A stretch of DNA of 32,925 bases. Source: Flavobacteriales bacterium. GTDB lineage: Bacteria > Bacteroidota > Bacteroidia > Flavobacteriales_D > JAHECK01. How positions within the stretch are numbered: the first letter of the stretch is position 1; each line of letters opens with the position of its first letter. The DNA lies in contig JAUVAY010000014.1 in NCBI GenBank assembly GCA_030591505.1, positions 1-32,925 on the forward strand, read 5' to 3'. Made by a program: the position numbers and the translations under genes. Under the pieces are notes generated by a model. That model was not told the DNA's origin. It searched no databases and worked only from the letters and a program-made list of their open reading frames with translations. Positions 168-31,747 of the stretch are shown piece by piece.

Positions 168-378
168 ATTGCCTTTTATCGCGGAATTCAAAAAATCCCA
201 AGTACAAAACCCTTTATTATTTTGATATTAATAGCTTTATAATCAGTGTTAATAGGGTTTGGAGTGAATTAAATTTTGTATCATTGAAAGCATCTTAGTA
301 CCTAAACCACCGTCTAAGACTTGCTGATTTTTATTTGATAGTATAATCCTTGTTTTCAGGGGTTTATTGGAAGTTGTT
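168..378. other. Intergenic leader ahead of the giant surface-protein gene
   Basis: AT-rich non-coding stretch between the terminator and the ATG at 379. I see no RNA gene or conserved structure. TATTTG- and TAATCCTTG-like strings (about 330-355) sit where a promoter for the downstream gene should be, but none matches TAnnTTTG exactly, so no promoter is called. Confidence 0.4.
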
Positions 379-3300
379 ATGAGGGGATTGTTAACTGCAA
401 TAATTCTATTATGGAATCTTTGTCTTCCATTGTTTGTAACTGGTCAAGACCTTAACGGGCAAATACTGTCATTATCACAACCAGGTTGTAGTCCTCCCTT
501 TACTGGCGAAGTTTCAGTTTTAGGAATTGATGGAGTTCCTCCTTATTTATATACGCTCGACGCGTCCATCATTCAAACTAATGGGAGTTTTTCAAACTTA
601 ATTTTAGGAGATCATTCTATCGTAATAAAGGATAACCTTGGTAGTACTTATACTTTATTCTTTACAATAGAGATAAATAATCAATTGGAGATCTCTGTTT
701 TTGATTTGTCTCACGTAAGCTGTGCCGGTGAGTCAATAGGAGAAATCTCAGTTGTTGCATTCTCTGGTGTTTCTCCTTTTTCATTCTCTATAGATGGAGG
801 TGCAAACTTTCAATCGAATGGTGATTTCACTAATCTTTCCGATGGAATATATCAAATAATAGGGCAAGATGCTTCGGGTTGTTTAGATACTGTTTCTGCA
901 GAAATAGTGGCGTTGTCTCAAATTAATCTTCTAGCGATCAATCAAGAAAACGTTGATTGTTTTGATGGAAGTAATGCCAGTATTCAACTGATTGGAGAAT
1001 TTGGTTCTTCACCTTACCAGTATTCTATGGATGGAGTAAACTTCCAATCAAGTGAGTTTTTTACAAATATTGATGCTGGAGATCATCAGTTTTGGGTAGA
1101 AGATATTAGTGCTTGTTCCGACAGTATAAGTTTAAATTTTACGCAACCTGATTCTGTAAGCGTAGAAAATCTATCAATCATAAACAATAGCTGTTTTAAT
1201 GGAAATGATGGTGAATTTACCTTTGATGTAAGTGGTGGGACAGCCCCCTATTTTTATCAGCTTAACGGCGGACTTGAAAACAACACTCCCCATTTCTCCG
1301 GATTAAGTGCAGGGAACTATGAATTGATAATTAATGATAATAGTTCATGCAGTTATTCCTATGAACTTGTCATTGATGAGCCCGATAGCCTGATTTTTAC
1401 TATTGTAAACTCGAATAGTCCACTTTGTTATGGTGAAAGTAATGGGAGTATTGAGTTTTCTTGTGTTGGTGGAATTTTTCCTTATGAGTATGCCATTGAC
1501 GGGAATGCATGGCAAGATTCTGCTCTCTTTACAACTTTGAGTGCTGGTGTGCACTCGCTACAGGTTAGAGATCAAAATGCGTGTACAAGTTCTTTTGAAT
1601 ATGAACTTTTTGATCAAATTGAACTCAATTTATCCCTAGTAACTCAAGTAAATGTATTTTGTAATATTTCTACAAATGGATCTATAGAAGTTCTTGCTTC
1701 AGGAGGTTTTGGATCTTACAGTTATTCGCTTAATAGTGAAGCATTTCAACCTTTACCCCAGTTTACTGGTTTAAGTTCTGGCCTATACACAATTGAAGTA
1801 ATGGATGATAATTCATGTGTAACAAGTTTAGATATCGAAATTACTGAAATTAATAACCTTCAGATTGATGATGTTCAAGTTGTAGATGCAGTATGTGGGA
1901 TTGCTCCTGAAGGACAAATTACCATACTAGCATCTGGCGGAGTAATACCTTATCAATATTCTATTGATGGTGGAGCACTTCAAGCATCCAATCTGTTTCT
2001 TAATGTAACCCCAGGCATTCACACTATTGAATTATCTACGAGTGACGGCTGTAGTGTTAGTACAAATGGCACTCTTTTGTCAATTTCAAATATTGGAATC
2101 TCTGTACTTGATCTAATTGAGCCTACTTGTAACGGAAGCAATGATGGATCGATTGACCTTATTGCTACAGGAGGAAGCGCTCCTTTCGAGTACTCCATCG
2201 ATTTTGGTATAAATTGGCAAGTAAATGGAAATTTCGCTGGACTTACCGATTCAACTTATCTCATAAGTATTCAAGATCAATTTTTATGTTCATTTGACAC
2301 ACTTATAACCTTTACAGAACAAAGTAATTTATTGATCGACCTGCTTTCCATAAGTGCGTTGATCTGTCCTGGTTCAAATGTTGGTTCAATCGAATTAAAT
2401 GGTATTAATGGAACAGCTCCAAGCACTTATTCAAGCGATGGAATAAATTTTAATTCAACTACACTGTATTCAGGATTGAACACAGGTGATCATTCATTTT
2501 GGTTCCAGGATGGAATGGGTTGCATTACGGATACAGTATTTACCATCGATGCCTTTGAAACACCTTCTCTCGTTACAGACTCCCTTTTAGCACCTACATG
2601 TAGTGGGATGAATGATGGTGTAATTCAGGTAAGTCCAGGTGGGAGTGCAACACCTTATCAATATGCCTTTGATGGAGGGGCTTTTCAAGCATCTTCTTAT
2701 TTCAATAATTTATTAGCCGGGACCTATACAATCGTTGCAGAGGATTATAATCTCTGTCAAACAAGTGTGGATTATACCCTTGTTGATGTTCCTGTATTTC
2801 AAGTTAGCATTGATTCTGTAAATGATATTCTTTGCAAAGGGGGAGAAGAGGGGGAGATCTTTTATAGTTTTCTTGGTGGTCAAGCTCCTTATTATGTAAG
2901 CATTAACAGTGGAAGTTGGCAAGCTGCATCAAGTTCTACGGGTACATTGTTTGCAGGCACCTATAATTTATCGTTTAAAGATGAAAACGGTTGCATCCTT
3001 TCATTAATTGAAACCATTGATGAGCCGCTACTTGATCTTGTATCGGAAATTTTATCCGTTGTAAATGTTAATTGTGTTTCAGATAGTAATGGTTCTGTTT
3101 TTGGGTTTGCAAGTGGGGGGACTTTCCCCTACGAGTTTTCGATTGACGCCATTAACTATCAAGGCTCAGGGAGTTTTGCTAATTTATGGACAGGTAATTA
3201 TACTTTGTATGTTAAAGATGGTAATGGATGTATAAGCAATGAAGATTTTTCAATTTTATCGACTTCATCTGTAAGTGCAGTTTGGGCTTCTGTGATACTA

Positions 3301-6300
3301 CCAACTTGTGAAACAGCTACAAATGGTTTTTTAAGCGTTGCAGTATTTAATGGAGCTGATCCCTACTCTTTTCAACTTAACAATGGTCCCTCACAATTAG
3401 GAGGTTCGTTTTCTAATTTGGGAGAAGATTATTACGTGGTCAGGGTAACCGATACTCTTGGTTGTGAGGTTACAATTGATACTACCTTGATTAGCAATGC
3501 AACATTGGAAATTGCTGTTGACTCAGTAATTAATATTACCTGCATGGCTGATTCTTCAGGGGAGATCTTCCTAAATGCAAGCGGAGGGATTCCAACTTAC
3601 TCTTTTTTTATTGATGGTAACCCTCTGATAGGAAATAGCAGTAATGGTTTTACAAGTGGGATCTATCAATCGTGGGTTGTTGATGCCGTTGGATGTTCAG
3701 ATTCTATTGAAGTAGCGGTTCAACAAGAGAGTTTATTACAAGGGTCTATATACTCCCAGCAAAATATAATATGTAATAATGGTGATTTAGGGAGTGTTAC
3801 AGTAAATGGAATTACAGGATCCAGTCCTTACTTTTATTCTTTTGAAGGAGGAGCATTTGATAGTATAAATACCTTTAGCGACCTGGAAGAAGGGAATTAT
3901 ACCGTAATAATTCAGGACGCTACCAATTGTGAAGCGCAAGTTGATGTTTCGATTGAAATGCTAACGCAAATCGATCTTCAGGTTCAATATACGATCGAAC
4001 CCTCATGCAATGCACTCGATGACGCTATTGCATCTTTTGAAGTCAACGGAGGAATAGGACCTTACCTTTATTCACTTGATCTTTCTGGACTGTCAATAGT
4101 TTCTCAGTATAACGACCTTTATGCTGGACCTCACACGGTGTATGCAGAGGATAGTCAGGGATGCAACGATTCTATTAGTTTTACTATAGATGAGCCTCTC
4201 GCGATTGATATGATTTTCGATTCTATTGGATTAGCAAGTTGCTTTGGGAATAATGATGCTTTTATTGCTATATCATCGATCAATAGTGCAGGAGCTCCTT
4301 CCTATAACTTATTACCCAATGATATAACCAATAGCAGTGGTTTATTCACGGATTTAACTGATGGGATTTACACTTTAAATGTGATCGATCAAAATCAATG
4401 TACTAAGGATTCGATAGTTGAAATAGTTTCTCCGTCCCTAATGGACTTGAGTATTAGCATTGTCAATTCCTTAGACTGTTATGGAGATAATAATGCTATT
4501 ATTGATGTTATCGTTAATGGTGGAACAGCCCCGTTTGAGTATTTAATTGACTCTGTAAGTAATGGAAATAATAGCTTTATAAATAACCTGTCTTTTGGAG
4601 AGTATACTGTACAAGTTATTGATCAGAATAACTGTATTGATATTGAAACCTTTAGTATTGACCAACCCGATAGTATCTCGATCAATAACATTCAGATCAA
4701 TGATATTAGTTGTTTTGCTGCAGATGATGGCCTGGCCTTTATCAACGCCTCAGGTGGAAGCGGAGAATTAAATTATCTGCTGAATACAGGGGTTAATAGC
4801 GCTAATGGCTTGTTTATAGACTTATTACCAGGTGATTATTCATTGCAAATTATGGATTCACTTGCCTGTAATGTTCAGTATGAATTTTCTATTATCGAAC
4901 CTGAATTATTGATGATTGATACAGTGCTAACTCAAAATTTAACATGTTTTGGAGATTCAAGTGGTAGCTTTATTGTGTCAGTAAGTGGTGGAAGCCCTGG
5001 TTATACCTTCGATAATCTTGTTTTAGGAACTAATAATGATGGTGTATATAATAATGTTAATATGGGAGCTTATTATATCAATGTAATTGACCAAAATAGC
5101 TGTAGTGCTACTCAGGTTATTTCTATTACTGAACCTGACCTTCTTTCTCTTGTTACCCAAGCGGTAGTTCCACCTTTATGTTATAACGACTCCTCAGCAA
5201 CAGTTCTTTTACAGGCCACTGGAGGGAACGGTAATTCCATGTATGGATTAAGCTTAGATGACCTCGGTTTTGGATCTGTGTTTCAGAACCTTTATCCGGG
5301 TATGACCTCGTTTTATGTTGCGGATAGCCTCGGTTGTAGTGATTCTGTAGATGTTTATATACCAAATAGCGATTCTTTGTCATTTGATGTTGCAATTCAA
5401 AGTGTAACATGCTATGGAGATAGTGATGGTATTGTTCAACTTATTGGAGAAGGAGGAAGTCAAGGTTATAGCTATTCAATGGATCAAAACTCATGGTTTG
5501 ATGAGGGAACATTTATTGATTTACCAGCAAACGATCATCTATTTTACTTAATGGACTCTAATGGTTGTATAAAAGACACAATTATTTCTCTTACACAACC
5601 CGACACCTTAATAGCAGAGATCCCATCCATTTATCCAGTTACATGCTCTGATCAAAATAGTGGAGTTATAAATGTATCGATTAGTGGTGGTACTGAACCT
5701 TTTGAAAGTACATTGAATACTAATTCCTTAAGTGGATCTACTGTTTCGTTTGAAGGCTTGTCTGTTGGAAGCTATCAAATTTTTATATCAGATGTTAATG
5801 GATGTGAAACACTGCTTGATACGGTTTTAGCAGAAGTAGAAAATGTGAGTGCCTCTATCGATTCTTCCTCATTAGATTGTTTCGGTGATAATAATGGGGT
5901 AGCTACTGTTAGTTATTCGGGTGGTTCAGGAGCCTATTTGTTTTTATGGAATAATTCAACGGAAGATGAATCTGCCACTACGCAAGCAAACCTTGTGGCA
6001 GACGTTTCCTATACTGTTACTGTATATGATAGCCTTGATCTTAATTGCTATACAACAGCTGAAGTTATATTGACACAACCTGAACAAATTGAATTTGAAC
6101 TCTATCCTTATTCTTCCTCTTGTGATCCTAATGAGATCTCTGTTAATATTGAATTGATTTCCGGTGGGGTTGAACCATTTCTTTTTTCAATAAATGATGA
6201 ACAGCCTGTCGAATCAAGTATTTTTTCTAATTTAACTACTGTTTCAACTCAATTTATAGTTGTCGATTCAGATGGATGTGATGAAAATGAATGGTTGACT

Positions 6301-6885
6301 CCCGAGAATCCAAATGTGATCGAAGCTTATTTTGATGTAAGTGATGATGTAGTTCCATTGGGTGAAAGTGAAGTGCTGTTCACCGACCTAAGTGGAAATT
6401 CAAGTCATCTTGAATGGAATTTTGGAGATGGTGTTGTTGTTAGTGCGAATGCAGGTGAAATGGCGATTGGAGACAATACTGTGGGACCGATCTTAGAACC
6501 AGAACATAGCTATATGAGTTTTGGTGAGTTTACTGCTCAACTCAATGTTTCAAGCGAGTTTGGATGTGAAGATTCTTATGAGAGATTAATTATAGTTGAA
6601 GAGGATCATAGAGTGTATGTCCCAAATTCTTTTTCACCTAATAATGATGGGGTTAATGATTTATTTGAAGTTAAAGGAAGCACCATAGCATCCTATGGTT
6701 TTTCAATGAGAATTTTTGATAGAAGTGGAAACGTGATATTTGAAAGCTTTGATATTAATATTGGATGGGACGGAACAGGGAAAAACGGCGTACTTTTACG
6801 ACCGGATGTTTATGTGTATATGATCTCATATAATTCAGGAGATAAATTTTTTGAAAAGAATGGGTCACTTACCTTACTTCGTTAA
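379..6885 (+). CDS. Giant SprB-repeat protein with PKD and T9SS type B sorting domain
   Basis: Secreted cell-surface protein of 2,168 residues. The ATG at 379 is preferred over the in-frame TTG at 367 because it directly begins a signal peptide (MRGLLTAIILLWNLCLPLF, cleavage near VTGQ). The body is about 25 tandem units of roughly 78 residues. Each opens with Cys and an acidic or Gly-rich turn (such as CNGSNDGSI), then a GG-x-x-PY-x-YSID strand, an F-x-NL-x-x-G-x-Y turn, and a second Cys near D-x-x-GC: the SprB repeat of gliding adhesins. A PKD-like domain follows (WNFGDG, HSY, about residues 1980-2078). The last 90 residues are the gliding-motility-associated C-terminal domain (VPNSFSPNNDGVNDLF, WDG, PDVYVYMI), the type B signal for T9SS export. 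The family suggests a surface adhesin or filament. No SprF/PorP-type partner lies next to it. The exact role is unknown. Confidence 0.92.
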   Translation: MRGLLTAIILLWNLCLPLFVTGQDLNGQILSLSQPGCSPPFTGEVSVLGIDGVPPYLYTLDASIIQTNGSFSNLILGDHSIVIKDNLGSTYTLFFTIEINNQLEISVFDLSHVSCAGESIGEISVVAFSGVSPFSFSIDGGANFQSNGDFTNLSDGIYQIIGQDASGCLDTVSAEIVALSQINLLAINQENVDCFDGSNASIQLIGEFGSSPYQYSMDGVNFQSSEFFTNIDAGDHQFWVEDISACSDSISLNFTQPDSVSVENLSIINNSCFNGNDGEFTFDVSGGTAPYFYQLNGGLENNTPHFSGLSAGNYELIINDNSSCSYSYELVIDEPDSLIFTIVNSNSPLCYGESNGSIEFSCVGGIFPYEYAIDGNAWQDSALFTTLSAGVHSLQVRDQNACTSSFEYELFDQIELNLSLVTQVNVFCNISTNGSIEVLASGGFGSYSYSLNSEAFQPLPQFTGLSSGLYTIEVMDDNSCVTSLDIEITEINNLQIDDVQVVDAVCGIAPEGQITILASGGVIPYQYSIDGGALQASNLFLNVTPGIHTIELSTSDGCSVSTNGTLLSISNIGISVLDLIEPTCNGSNDGSIDLIATGGSAPFEYSIDFGINWQVNGNFAGLTDSTYLISIQDQFLCSFDTLITFTEQSNLLIDLLSISALICPGSNVGSIELNGINGTAPSTYSSDGINFNSTTLYSGLNTGDHSFWFQDGMGCITDTVFTIDAFETPSLVTDSLLAPTCSGMNDGVIQVSPGGSATPYQYAFDGGAFQASSYFNNLLAGTYTIVAEDYNLCQTSVDYTLVDVPVFQVSIDSVNDILCKGGEEGEIFYSFLGGQAPYYVSINSGSWQAASSSTGTLFAGTYNLSFKDENGCILSLIETIDEPLLDLVSEILSVVNVNCVSDSNGSVFGFASGGTFPYEFSIDAINYQGSGSFANLWTGNYTLYVKDGNGCISNEDFSILSTSSVSAVWASVILPTCETATNGFLSVAVFNGADPYSFQLNNGPSQLGGSFSNLGEDYYVVRVTDTLGCEVTIDTTLISNATLEIAVDSVINITCMADSSGEIFLNASGGIPTYSFFIDGNPLIGNSSNGFTSGIYQSWVVDAVGCSDSIEVAVQQESLLQGSIYSQQNIICNNGDLGSVTVNGITGSSPYFYSFEGGAFDSINTFSDLEEGNYTVIIQDATNCEAQVDVSIEMLTQIDLQVQYTIEPSCNALDDAIASFEVNGGIGPYLYSLDLSGLSIVSQYNDLYAGPHTVYAEDSQGCNDSISFTIDEPLAIDMIFDSIGLASCFGNNDAFIAISSINSAGAPSYNLLPNDITNSSGLFTDLTDGIYTLNVIDQNQCTKDSIVEIVSPSLMDLSISIVNSLDCYGDNNAIIDVIVNGGTAPFEYLIDSVSNGNNSFINNLSFGEYTVQVIDQNNCIDIETFSIDQPDSISINNIQINDISCFAADDGLAFINASGGSGELNYLLNTGVNSANGLFIDLLPGDYSLQIMDSLACNVQYEFSIIEPELLMIDTVLTQNLTCFGDSSGSFIVSVSGGSPGYTFDNLVLGTNNDGVYNNVNMGAYYINVIDQNSCSATQVISITEPDLLSLVTQAVVPPLCYNDSSATVLLQATGGNGNSMYGLSLDDLGFGSVFQNLYPGMTSFYVADSLGCSDSVDVYIPNSDSLSFDVAIQSVTCYGDSDGIVQLIGEGGSQGYSYSMDQNSWFDEGTFIDLPANDHLFYLMDSNGCIKDTIISLTQPDTLIAEIPSIYPVTCSDQNSGVINVSISGGTEPFESTLNTNSLSGSTVSFEGLSVGSYQIFISDVNGCETLLDTVLAEVENVSASIDSSSLDCFGDNNGVATVSYSGGSGAYLFLWNNSTEDESATTQANLVADVSYTVTVYDSLDLNCYTTAEVILTQPEQIEFELYPYSSSCDPNEISVNIELISGGVEPFLFSINDEQPVESSIFSNLTTVSTQFIVVDSDGCDENEWLTPENPNVIEAYFDVSDDVVPLGESEVLFTDLSGNSSHLEWNFGDGVVVSANAGEMAIGDNTVGPILEPEHSYMSFGEFTAQLNVSSEFGCEDSYERLIIVEEDHRVYVPNSFSPNNDGVNDLFEVKGSTIASYGFSMRIFDRSGNVIFESFDINIGWDGTGKNGVLLRPDVYVYMISYNSGDKFFEKNGSLTLLR

Positions 6886-27719: not shown

Positions 27720-28949
27720 ATGGATGTCCAGCGATTAAAACCATCGGATTTTGTGTCGTTTTCAGGTGAGATCCAATTAGAAAAATCGAAAAGTATAGCA
27801 AATAGAGCTTTACTTCTGCAGGCACTTTCATTTTTTTCATTTTCAATTGACGATGTAGGGAAATCGGATGATGTATTGATCATGAAAGAAGCACTTTTAT
27901 CAAGCAATTCTATGGTGAATGTTGGAATGGCAGGCACTGCTCTTCGTTTCCTGACAGCAGGTTATAGTGTTCTTCCAGGAAAAAGAGTTGTTGATGGTCA
28001 TCCTCGTTTGAAAGATCGTCCAATCGTGCCATTACTCGATGCACTTAAGGTCTTGGGAGCAAAAATTTCATTTCCAAGTATAGATGATAAATTACCTTTT
28101 GAAATTGAAGGTGGTTTTGTAAAAGGAAATGAAGTTGACATAGAACAATTGCTTTCTTCTCAATTTATCTCTGCTTTAATGATGATAGGTCCTTTTCTTC
28201 CCAATGGTTTAAGGATTAAAAGAAAGGAAAATAGAACTTCTGATTCTTATGTTCTGCTTACTAAACGAATTTTGGAGGATATGGGCTTAGTCGTTGAATT
28301 AACTCAAGATGAGATCTATCTGCCAAGCAAATTACCAACAATTAAAAGCTATATTATCGAAAGTGATTGGTCGGCGGCTGGATATTGGATGGCCTTTGCA
28401 GTCCTTGTTCCTGAATCCAATATAATACTTAAAGGACTTAGAGAAGATAGTGCTCAAGGTGATAAGGAAATGCTGACTATACTTAAGCGTTTTGGATTGC
28501 ATTATAAATGGGATGATGAAAAATTGATTCTCTCTCGGAATACTGAGTTTTCAATGCCTGAAAGTTTTCAATACGATTGTTCTGAGATTCCTGATCAGGC
28601 TCAAACTCTAGCCTTTTTATGTGCGACTTTAGGAATAGAAGCAAAATTAACGGGGCTTGAAACGCTTTTTCATAAAGAGACAGACAGAATTGATGCCTTA
28701 AAAAGAGAAATTGAAAAGCTTGGTTACAATGTGGAAACAGCTAATGATTTTCTGTCGTTTAGTGGGGAATTAACGGTTGATAATACACATCTTAGCACAT
28801 ATAAGGATCATCGGATGGCAATGGCAGGAGCATTATTGGCCTGTCGAATTAAAGTTGAAATTGAAAACCCTAAAGTAGTGAGTAAATCATACCCTTCTTT
28901 TTGGGATGATCTAGAAATGCTTACCAACGCATCCGCAACTGAAAAGTAA
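27720..28949 (+). CDS. aroA: 3-phosphoshikimate 1-carboxyvinyltransferase (EPSP synthase)
   Basis: Joins shikimate-3-phosphate and phosphoenolpyruvate to give EPSP, the sixth shikimate step. The 409 residues include IQLEKSKSIANRALLLQAL (substrate Lys-Ser), VGMAGTALRFLTAG, VDGHPRLKDRPIVPLLDAL (the Arg-rich PEP site), SSQFISALMMIGPFL, SDWSAAGYWMAF, IPDQAQTLAF with the catalytic Asp, LFHKETDRIDALKREIEKLG with the catalytic Glu, and YKDHRMAMAGALLAC. The usual LTGD/LTGS before the Arg motif is replaced by VDGHP. It sits three bases after aroB. The last 29 bases overlap the end of the convergent helix-hairpin-helix protein gene. Confidence 0.95.
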   Translation: MDVQRLKPSDFVSFSGEIQLEKSKSIANRALLLQALSFFSFSIDDVGKSDDVLIMKEALLSSNSMVNVGMAGTALRFLTAGYSVLPGKRVVDGHPRLKDRPIVPLLDALKVLGAKISFPSIDDKLPFEIEGGFVKGNEVDIEQLLSSQFISALMMIGPFLPNGLRIKRKENRTSDSYVLLTKRILEDMGLVVELTQDEIYLPSKLPTIKSYIIESDWSAAGYWMAFAVLVPESNIILKGLREDSAQGDKEMLTILKRFGLHYKWDDEKLILSRNTEFSMPESFQYDCSEIPDQAQTLAFLCATLGIEAKLTGLETLFHKETDRIDALKREIEKLGYNVETANDFLSFSGELTVDNTHLSTYKDHRMAMAGALLACRIKVEIENPKVVSKSYPSFWDDLEMLTNASATEK

Positions 28950-30954
28950 GATCCGTTTTTTGATTTCCTTCAATGAGATCATTAGATGATCCAATGGTCG
29001 ATTTATAAGGATATCGGGTATGACTTATTCTGAAAACTAGACTAAAAAGACGGTTCAGCCTCCATTTTGCGAGTAGATAAATTTTTTGTCCTCTGTAGAA
29101 ATAGGGTTTTATAGAGTAGGTAAAATAGGCATCCCTTTCATAGGCATAAATTCTACTACTATAATCATCAGTATTAAAAATGGCATAGCGAAGACTTATG
29201 GAAAGAGGTTTTTCCGGAGCTTGAATAATTACATCAGTATAAAAAAGATAGCCGGCACTTTTTTCAATGATTTCTAAAAAGTGCAACTCAAGACGGTATC
29301 GAATTTTTATTGAAGGGTGCGTGTTGTGCTCATTTTGAATACGTATACGATGCCGTTTCCTTCCTTTTATTTGATTAAATCCTGAGATTTTGATCTCATC
29401 TTTTTCAAATCGATATTGAAAACTTGTTATGAGCTTTTTATTGCTCTTGTGTGTGATCTTAACTAATAGATCATGTCCCATAGTTGGAGAAGGTGCATTG
29501 CTTTTTATCCAGGGAAATTGGTATAGATCTATATAAGAATTGATCAAAGTTTTCCGAGAGATTTTATATTCAAAACCACTGTAGATTCCTTTCTCGTTTG
29601 AGTTTTTATTTCTTTCTCCAAAGGCATTAGAAGAAATTGATTGATAGTTAGCCGGGTAATTGCGGTGTAAAATTGAAAGCGAAAATGAGGGGTCAAGGGT
29701 AATTACAGTGCCAACTAAATAGGCCACGCTTCCGTTTGCACTTCGACTTATTTCTGTAAAGATGTGTGCATTGTTGAAAGAGAAATCTGTATTTATTCCT
29801 AATGTGAAATTTTCTTTACCTGAAAAGTATTGCAGGGCATATAAATTCTCTTTTGGTAGTAGATTGGAAGATAAAAGTTGGTGTGCATAAGAGAAGCCAA
29901 ATAATAAGTTTGATGATTTGTATTTTAAATGATTTCCCCATGTAATATCATTTAGGGATGATGAATAACTCAATTCCAAAGTGCTTCGATGGTATCCGGA
30001 GATCAAGATCGATTGAAACGCTGTTAAGCTTGAGTCAATGGGAATAGCATCTAATTTTCGGAATGAGAAGAATGAAGTGTTTTGAATTTTGTTTTTCCCC
30101 ATTTGAATTCCAATTCCCCTCAAAAAGTTTATTTCGTCTAATCCTGTATGAGGTCGAATGCCATAAGCAATTTTTCGAATGGGAACCGTTGATGATGATT
30201 TTCCAAATGAGAGGCCTTTCCAATAGCTTAATCCCTGTCCGAAAGCGACTTGAAAATCGCCAAGAGTGAAAGATTGTATAAATCCTTTACCAACATAGCG
30301 TAGGTAAGCCGAAACGTGATCAAAGCCAATTTTGGAGCGTTTTGGACTCCAAATAAATTGTTCCCCAGCATCTTTTTCGAGGTTTAAACCAAAACTCCAT
30401 TTTTTATAAAGACGAGTAGAAAATTTAACTAATATTCTTGTAGGATCGCCTAGATATGCGGGTTCAGGGCCCTTATAAGCATTTATTTGTTGTGTTGTTC
30501 TTTGATAGTGTATGGTAAGGTCTTTTCTACTTTCTTTAACAAGGTTTCCAGTGAAAATAGTCTTCATATCAGCTATTCCGTTGAAAGAAATAAAGGGCTT
30601 TAGGTTTTTTATTAGCTCCTTATCAATTTCCGGTATTTGTTGCAATTCTTCAATGGCCAAAATTTGACCAAATTCTTCGATGTGTTTTCTAATTGCTGAA
30701 AATTGGTTGCTGCTTAGAATTCCTAATCTTAGAAATAAATCAAAATCATTAGAATTTATATTGATCGGGCTTTGTTGAAGTCTTTCTAACTCGCTTTGTA
30801 ACTGTGCAATGTCAATGAGATTATCTTTCTCATCATTCATATTCTGATTAACGATGATCTCTATAATATTTTCAACTTCATTCTCTTGTGAAAAGAGGTG
30901 ACTACTGCTTATCAAGAATATAGTCAGCAATATGTTTTTAAAGATTCTTATCAT
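28921..30954 (-). CDS. Outer-membrane beta-barrel protein with ComEA-like HhH region
   Basis: A 677-residue envelope protein. A signal peptide (ILLTIFLISSSHLFSQ, cleavage near 23) is followed by a helical region (about 45-123) that reads as helix-hairpin-helix units of ComEA type: NINSNDFDLFLRLGILS, QFSAIRKHIEEFGQILAIEE, LQQIPEIDKELIKNLKPF. From about residue 140 to the end, alternating strands with aromatic ends (SFGLNLEKDAG, AYLRYVGKGFIQSFTLGDFQ, LTFQLRMRW at the C-terminus) predict a large outer-membrane barrel. The family is annotated in Bacteroidota only as HhH domain-containing. HhH motifs usually bind DNA; a periplasmic HhH region fused to a barrel suggests DNA or other polymer contact at the outer membrane, but this is inference. 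It overlaps the upstream barrel gene by 17 bases. Confidence 0.8.
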   Translation of the reverse strand: MIRIFKNILLTIFLISSSHLFSQENEVENIIEIIVNQNMNDEKDNLIDIAQLQSELERLQQSPININSNDFDLFLRLGILSSNQFSAIRKHIEEFGQILAIEELQQIPEIDKELIKNLKPFISFNGIADMKTIFTGNLVKESRKDLTIHYQRTTQQINAYKGPEPAYLGDPTRILVKFSTRLYKKWSFGLNLEKDAGEQFIWSPKRSKIGFDHVSAYLRYVGKGFIQSFTLGDFQVAFGQGLSYWKGLSFGKSSSTVPIRKIAYGIRPHTGLDEINFLRGIGIQMGKNKIQNTSFFSFRKLDAIPIDSSLTAFQSILISGYHRSTLELSYSSSLNDITWGNHLKYKSSNLLFGFSYAHQLLSSNLLPKENLYALQYFSGKENFTLGINTDFSFNNAHIFTEISRSANGSVAYLVGTVITLDPSFSLSILHRNYPANYQSISSNAFGERNKNSNEKGIYSGFEYKISRKTLINSYIDLYQFPWIKSNAPSPTMGHDLLVKITHKSNKKLITSFQYRFEKDEIKISGFNQIKGRKRHRIRIQNEHNTHPSIKIRYRLELHFLEIIEKSAGYLFYTDVIIQAPEKPLSISLRYAIFNTDDYSSRIYAYERDAYFTYSIKPYFYRGQKIYLLAKWRLNRLFSLVFRISHTRYPYKSTIGSSNDLIEGNQKTDLTFQLRMRW

Positions 30955-31747
30955 AGCTAAGAGAAATTGCAGGACTAAATCCGAATGTAGATTGATAAGA
31001 AGTAGCGAAATCTATTTTGAATTTCTTTAATAACAAGCCAAAACCAAATGTGAATGATGCCGGGTGGCTATTTATCCCTGTTCGAAGAATAAGTAGTGAA
31101 TGAATTTGATATTCAACACCATAGCGAAAAGATAAAGCCTGCTCTAGTTCAATCGCATTTTCCAAATACATTTGAACACGCTTATTTACATTTATCTTTA
31201 TGCCTACGATCGATGTGATGGGCCAAAATTGCTCCCATTCATTGTGTTTTTTAGAAAGTGTAATGTTTTTGAATAAGACACCTAACTCTATTTTATCATT
31301 GAAGCGATAATTGCTTCCTATGTCAGGGTAAAAAGACCCGCTAGTTCCTAAATTTTCACCAACGATCAATTGGTGGTAATTGAGTTTTATTCCTAAGGAT
31401 AACTGTGGACTAAAATTCATTGAATAAGCTAATCCTACTCTAATTTCACGATATAGACTAAAACCAAATGTATACAGGTCGAAAGCAATTGTGTTTTTAA
31501 ATAGAGGTAAGCTCATAGCAATTAATGAGTGTTGGACCTCTTTTAAAGTGTATTGATTTAGTGATGCGATTCCAAATGCAAAAGATGGCATTAAGTTTAA
31601 TTTTGCAATATTTTGACTTGCAGAAAGTATGTCATTTTGAGTTAATTGAGTACTTCCAAGAGCTATGTTTCGGGCTCCTATTCCCTGTGAAAACAGGTTG
31701 GAATGAATGATTATTAGCGCTATAATAAAGGTACAGAAGCTTCTCAT
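30938..31747 (-). CDS. PorV/FadL-like outer-membrane protein
   Basis: A 269-residue protein with a signal peptide (FIIALIIIHSNLFSQ, ending at about 21). The mature N-terminus GIGARNIALGSTQLTQND resembles the GARxxALG start of PorV, PorQ and related FadL-type barrels, followed by amphipathic strands (FGFSLYREIRVGLAYSM, LSLGIKLNYHQLIVGENLG, PDIGSNYRFNDKIELGVLF, ASFTFGFGLLLKKFKIDFA). The usual NPA motif after the ALG turn is replaced by SASQNIAK. It is shorter than PorV (about 380 residues), so it is a reduced or divergent relative. Its last 17 bases overlap the HhH-barrel gene on the same strand, so the two are almost certainly co-translated and may form one envelope complex. Confidence 0.72.
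   Translation of the reverse strand: MRSFCTFIIALIIIHSNLFSQGIGARNIALGSTQLTQNDILSASQNIAKLNLMPSFAFGIASLNQYTLKEVQHSLIAMSLPLFKNTIAFDLYTFGFSLYREIRVGLAYSMNFSPQLSLGIKLNYHQLIVGENLGTSGSFYPDIGSNYRFNDKIELGVLFKNITLSKKHNEWEQFWPITSIVGIKINVNKRVQMYLENAIELEQALSFRYGVEYQIHSLLILRTGINSHPASFTFGFGLLLKKFKIDFATSYQSTFGFSPAISLSYDKNL

Follow-up and report, generated by a model that had tools for sequence, protein, structure and literature searches.

A single-copy outer-membrane barrel of Bacteroidota with a ComEA-like (HhH)2 domain and a PorV-like partner

In Riemerella anatipestifer, loss of the HhH/ComEA protein RA0C_RS02645 abolishes transformation (PMC8459023), as does loss of PGN_0421, also an HhH/ComEA protein, in Porphyromonas gingivalis (PMC11532111), and both proteins are thought to be periplasmic. 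The passage of DNA across the outer membrane has been called unclear in P. gingivalis (PMC11532111), and in Riemerella this step has been assigned to other proteins in a speculative model (PMC8459023). The outer-membrane step of transforming DNA is therefore a gap in the Bacteroidota (here the phylum in the GTDB sense), for which the gene described below, referred to as the HhH-barrel gene, provides a named candidate. Our literature searches returned no publication on the pair that this gene forms with a PorV-like gene.

A gene pair encoding two predicted outer-membrane barrels

The pair lies in a stretch of 32,925 nucleotides from a Flavobacteriales genome, which was analysed as a whole and is called the window throughout. 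A first-pass annotation, made from the letters of the window, had described two open reading frames overlapping by 17 bases, in exact agreement with the 677-aa and 269-aa frames given here, of which the latter is upstream:

30938..31747, (-) strand: first gene of the pair, for a PorV/PorQ-FadL-like outer-membrane barrel of 14 strands and 269 aa
28921..30954, (-) strand: HhH-barrel protein, 677 aa, with a signal peptide (about residues 1-22), a helical linker, an (HhH)2 domain and an outer-membrane barrel of about 26 strands
30589..30774, (-) strand: ComEA-like (HhH)2 domain of the 677-aa protein (residues 61-122; HHH_3 and family profile), with substituted hairpin glycines
28927..30528, (-) strand: barrel region of the 677-aa protein, residues 143-676, about 26 predicted strands (AlphaFold2, Foldseek)

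The neighbours of the pair in the window are aroA and asnB, and comEC is not adjacent there. At its 3' end, the HhH-barrel gene shares 29 bp (28921-28949) with the convergent aroA-like gene (27720-28949), and an aroA-like neighbour is also present in the closest relative, L045. Elsewhere in the window, positions 367-6885 of the (+) strand encode a protein of 2172 aa that carries a PKD domain and a CHU_C type IX sorting domain besides about 20 SprB repeats; by its predicted domains it is a gliding-adhesin-like T9SS substrate.

The 677-aa protein has no NCBIfam match, and its match to the Pfam family HHH_3 (PF12836) is weak (residues 61-122, E 0.0068, 16.9 bits), so that the window copy alone falls below the 27-bit cut-off of that family. 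A profile of 78 members of the HhH-barrel family matched, across the same stretch of residues, the solved ComEA structures 8dss (E 1.2e-5) and 8dfk (E 1.6e-4) as well as EEPD1 (E 1.8e-7), and the deep-branching member L159 scored 54.6 bits against HHH_3, above the cut-off. Because the family profile and L159 score well, we attribute the weak score of the window protein to a divergent copy. Four HhH helices were predicted by AlphaFold2 in the window protein (69-76/82-95 and 101-106/112-121), which, together with the family profile, bears out the earlier reading of HhH units behind a signal peptide as a ComEA-like (HhH)2 domain at about residues 61-122. The domain is discernible by eye in most divergent members inspected, such as L163 and L165, which indicates that the fusion of HhH domain and barrel is old.

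The hairpins of ComEA carry G-h-G motifs (LPGIGP and TGIGEK in the aligned structure), whereas the HhH-barrel family lacks both. In the family alignment, glycine occurs in 0 of 78 sequences at the two motif positions of hairpin 1, where L/F/I/M/V and N/S/T are found instead, and hairpin 2 reads G, F/W, D (Gly in 61 of 78, then Asp in 58 of 78). Since both GhG hairpins are lost, canonical contact of this domain with the DNA backbone appears unlikely from the sequence, and protein docking or loose guidance would be the more likely role; the DNA contact through the HhH units that had been proposed earlier is weakened accordingly. The net charge of the HhH region, which averages -2.5 in the family, was dropped as a sign against DNA binding, the aligned ComEA segment being similarly acidic by hand count.

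The AlphaFold2 model of the 677-aa protein (pLDDT 88.7, pTM 0.85, from an alignment of 78 sequences) has about 26 strands, as counted by hand from the listed strands of the model, across residues 143-676, with pLDDT mostly above 85. Its best Foldseek matches were outer-membrane barrels only, with the Mtr complex barrel 6r2q_B at the top (E 6.2e-12, TM 0.41, 9% identity), followed by AlgE, TonB-dependent receptors and ushers. The strand-rich remainder of the protein, which the first-pass annotation had taken for a barrel, is thus predicted to be a real one, and among solved structures it has no close relative. The lumen-facing positions, assigned by strand parity so that the charges are rough estimates, are charge-rich and net basic (about +8 as the family mean, +12 in the window protein), and the lumen charge of the PorV-like partner is about 0 (neutral); as a feature of the model, the basic lumen of the HhH-barrel is suggestive only in favour of DNA uptake. 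A Pfam scan placed no secretin domain (PF00263) in either protein of the pair.

The 269-aa partner was modelled as a 14-strand barrel (AlphaFold2, pLDDT 92.9). Its closest PDB match by Foldseek is 8gl6_F (TM 0.79), a 367-residue chain of a T9SS translocon structure, which we infer to be PorV from the chain size and the NCBIfam matches; further matches were FadL, TodX and CymD, and one matched chain belongs to the BAM complex of F. johnsoniae. Against the NCBIfam PorV/PorQ family (NF033709), the partner gave an E value of 7.5e-13 and 48.8 bits, below the family cut-off of 90 bits, and 68 of 70 partner homologues match this model at E <= 0.01. The neighbour had been called a PorV-like barrel, a description that agrees with its fold and closest structural match, at a family score below the cut-off. 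The scores against the equivalog models, 16.4 bits for PorV and 29 bits for PorQ, are far from the respective cut-offs of 250 and 220 bits, and membership of the partner in the T9SS was rejected on this ground.

Distribution, linkage and comEC adjacency

Of 60 relatives, 57 carry a homologue of the HhH-barrel, as do 157 of the 198 genomes of a phylum-wide sample, green sulfur bacteria among them, and 247 of the 296 genomes of a class-wide sample, nearly always as one copy per genome. The HhH-barrel was not found in 41 of the 198 phylum genomes and 49 of the 296 class genomes, and is absent from every sampled member of some families (for example f17 and f16 in the phylum sample, f84 in the class sample). 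We take it to be a barrel of the outer membrane that is ancient in the Bacteroidota, kept in single copy and equipped with a ComEA-like (HhH)2 domain. Assignment of one of the families carrying it, f27, to Bacteroides was rejected, as f27 carries the FMO protein (7 of 7 genomes tested) and corresponds to Chlorobiaceae. In the Chlorobiaceae loci L174-L178, the HhH-barrel is present and the PorV-like gene is not adjacent.

Within the order, the PorV-like gene lies directly 5' of the HhH-barrel gene in 30 of 30 loci (the window included), and the two are adjacent in 76 of 80 named loci, of which 73 pass a strict script and three overlap via a longer predicted start. The remaining named loci comprise one with an intervening gene, two truncated at the edge of a contig and one without a PorV-like gene. 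The earlier expectation that adjacency would be conserved was therefore borne out in these loci. Phylum-wide, the link is kept in 36 of 60 loci (counting L156 and L161, in which the ORF starts overlap); in the other 24 the PorV-like gene is either not linked or absent, with a good homologue elsewhere in some genomes, for example G121 and G215. From these counts and the distant homologues, the gene pair is, on sequence grounds, ancestral within much of the phylum, with a partner that was separated or lost in places. An apparent fusion of the two genes in family f58 and in G089 and G236 was rejected, the long ORFs being start-site artefacts in GC-rich genomes. Recurrent neighbours of the HhH-barrel gene are the housekeeping genes purE, adk, hpt and obg, named by eye from the sequence.

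In nine loci of Sphingobacteriaceae-type genomes, comEC follows the HhH-barrel ORF in the same orientation, its start lying between -10 and +6 bp relative to the end of that ORF. According to their titles, L067 and L108 come from Sphingobacteriaceae and L095 (a partial locus) from Pedobacter, and L125-L128, L187 and L188 belong to family f14, where comEC is adjacent in 6 of 6 examined genomes with an intact barrel gene. The identity of comEC was checked on one copy (Pfam Competence, 204 bits). The genes flanking the barrel-comEC cluster differ among most of the nine loci while the cluster is kept. The order PorV-like gene, HhH-barrel, comEC is found in six loci, and the PorV-like gene is missing beside barrel and comEC in the other three (L128 in G061, L187 in G486 and L188 in G500); in L127 (G195) it is split into two frames, with the HhH-barrel gene still directly before comEC. 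Because the partner was lost or broken while barrel and comEC stayed together, the barrel-comEC unit is the more durable association in these genomes. A small MerR-like gene lies upstream of the HhH-barrel gene in L187 and L188. Since comEC adjacency was seen in one lineage only, it probably reflects a single evolutionary event. Given the number of neighbours inspected, a chance origin has, by a rough estimate, a probability of up to a few percent.

Competence genes and possible functions

Among the 198 genomes of the phylum sample, 197 have comEC, 196 have dprA and 197 have an HHH_3 protein of some kind, and this near-universality of comEC and dprA deprives a presence-absence correlation with the HhH-barrel of power. 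The sole genome without comEC, G224, is also without dprA, HHH_3 and the HhH-barrel. In G172 (family f15, a 2.0-Mb genome), comEC (C1:162198-162944) contains two in-frame stops and is accompanied by a weak dprA and a weak HhH-barrel match, so that joint decay of the three genes is possible there; these two genomes are two anecdotes only.

The genome of the window encodes comEC and dprA, and a search with PF00263 gave no secretin match in it. A secretin was likewise not found in 22 of 24 sampled genomes of the order and class, and was present in 56 of 99 genomes phylum-wide; the earlier remark about a phylum without a clear PilQ route thus fits the class of the window and fails for the phylum as a whole. 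The window's genome also encodes a second HhH protein:

L186:5984-6919, (-) strand: 311-aa multi-HhH protein, on contig C113 of the window's genome (G000), with three HHH_3 matches

The N-terminal part of this protein includes a hydrophobic stretch, and of its three HhH units one has kept the GIG hairpin intact, features that make it the likely ComEA-equivalent of the genome.

Strong matches to DUF5689, the family of the Riemerella protein RA0C_RS04920, which is essential for transformation, were found for the window's class in 22 of 24 barrel-less versus 5 of 25 barrel-bearing genomes of the phylum sample. In the class sample, where a few families dominate, the counts were 28 of 49 versus 46 of 247. 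A complementary distribution of DUF5689 and HhH-barrel is thereby weakened and is confounded by phylogeny, and the enrichment in barrel-less genomes of the class is only a hint.

We tentatively favour a reading in which the HhH-barrel is an outer-membrane component of DNA uptake and uses its HhH domain for docking or guidance, not for gripping DNA. The protein would form the outer-membrane part of a secretin-independent route, its large barrel letting DNA pass or holding it. On what is most likely the periplasmic side, the HhH domain would dock to or guide the substrate toward the separate multi-HhH ComEA-like protein, and ComEC would then carry a single strand across the inner membrane. A capping, stabilising or gating role, like that of PorV at the T9SS translocon, may fall to the PorV/FadL-like partner, which is presumably in physical contact with the large barrel and would be dispensable in some lineages.

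DNA transport by the barrel and the direction of transport are inferred; the reading draws on the relationship to ComEA, on comEC lying next to the barrel gene in one lineage, and on the lack of a secretin in most of the class. The DNA-uptake reading is further favoured by the inventory of the window's genome (comEC, dprA and the 311-aa HhH protein, without a secretin), by the lack of the barrel in the genome that lacks comEC, and by the net basic lumen. It is weakened by the loss of the DNA-contacting hairpins, by lineages which have comEC and dprA without the barrel, by the restriction of comEC adjacency to one lineage, and by the assignment of the outer-membrane step to other proteins in Riemerella (PMC8459023). 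The first-pass annotation had suggested that the pair may form an outer-membrane device contacting DNA or another polymer, for example a DNA-uptake channel: the idea of DNA uptake gains from the nine comEC-adjacent loci and the lack of a secretin in the window's genome, but a strict two-protein device is hard to reconcile with a partner that is so often unlinked or missing across the phylum and that was lost in three loci beside comEC itself. We regard as doubtful a bolder version, in which the HhH-barrel would be the missing outer-membrane DNA channel of Bacteroidota and Chlorobia, monomeric, replacing PilQ, feeding ComEC and capped by the PorV-like protein; if true, DNA would have a second means of crossing an outer membrane, one that needs no secretin.

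It is also quite possible that the pair belongs to a general outer-membrane complex for the export or insertion of proteins, lipids or polysaccharides, with the barrel as channel, the PorV/FadL-like protein as cap, the HhH domain as a protein-docking element and the comEC adjacency as an accident of one lineage. Such a role would suit a near-ubiquitous single-copy protein without GhG motifs, whose neighbours in other lineages are mostly housekeeping genes and whose structural matches include AlgE and usher barrels, and it would also suit a partner that matches a BAM chain of F. johnsoniae and resembles the PorV-like proteins serving T9SS protein traffic. However, (HhH)2 domains of the ComEA type otherwise typically serve the handling of DNA, the flanks of the comEC cluster changed while the cluster itself was kept, and absence from whole sampled families (f17 and f84) would be unexpected for a general assembly device.

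An accessory role in the T9SS, with a shuttle resembling PorV and a barrel working alongside it in the manner of PorV-SprA, seems improbable. The PorV-like partner does match the PorV/PorQ family and is closest in the PDB to a T9SS translocon chain, and the SprB-repeat protein with its type IX sorting domain lies in the same window, but the equivalog scores are far too low, and the HhH-barrel is missing from many genomes of the class and present in Chlorobiaceae, which are not known for a T9SS. Uptake of extracellular DNA or nucleotides as a nutrient is very improbable, since, although it shares all the evidence for DNA uptake, which does not distinguish the fate of the cargo, comEC adjacency ties the barrel to a route into the cytoplasm.

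If the HhH-barrel is required for transformation, it would define a new way for DNA to cross the outer membrane in a phylum that is very abundant; if it is not, a phylum-wide, unstudied large barrel is still without a function.

Comparison with described systems

Among solved barrels, the 26-strand sheath barrel of the MtrB type (6r2q_B) is the best structural match and is similarly large, but it has no HhH domain, and we saw no sign of a cytochrome partner for the HhH-barrel. The PorV-like partner has the 14-strand fold common to PorV and PorQ of the T9SS and to FadL-type barrels, and differs from PorV/PorQ in being shorter (about 270 aa) and in scoring below the family cut-off. The PilQ secretin would serve the same step, that is, the passage of DNA across the outer membrane, whereas the HhH-barrel has no secretin domain and its predicted fold is a single-chain barrel.

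The (HhH)2 domain of the HhH-barrel aligns to ComEA over the full domain length. ComEA itself is a small, DNA-binding protein, soluble or membrane-anchored and without a barrel; in the HhH-barrel, the domain and an outer-membrane barrel share one chain. In the comE operon of Bacillus, comEA precedes comEC, and the HhH-barrel gene directly before comEC in one lineage repeats this arrangement. RA0C_RS02645 and PGN_0421 are HhH proteins from the same phylum as the HhH-barrel, but no barrel has been reported for them and the 311-aa protein resembles both better than the HhH-barrel does, which suggests that the HhH-barrel is an additional component and not the ComEA of the phylum.
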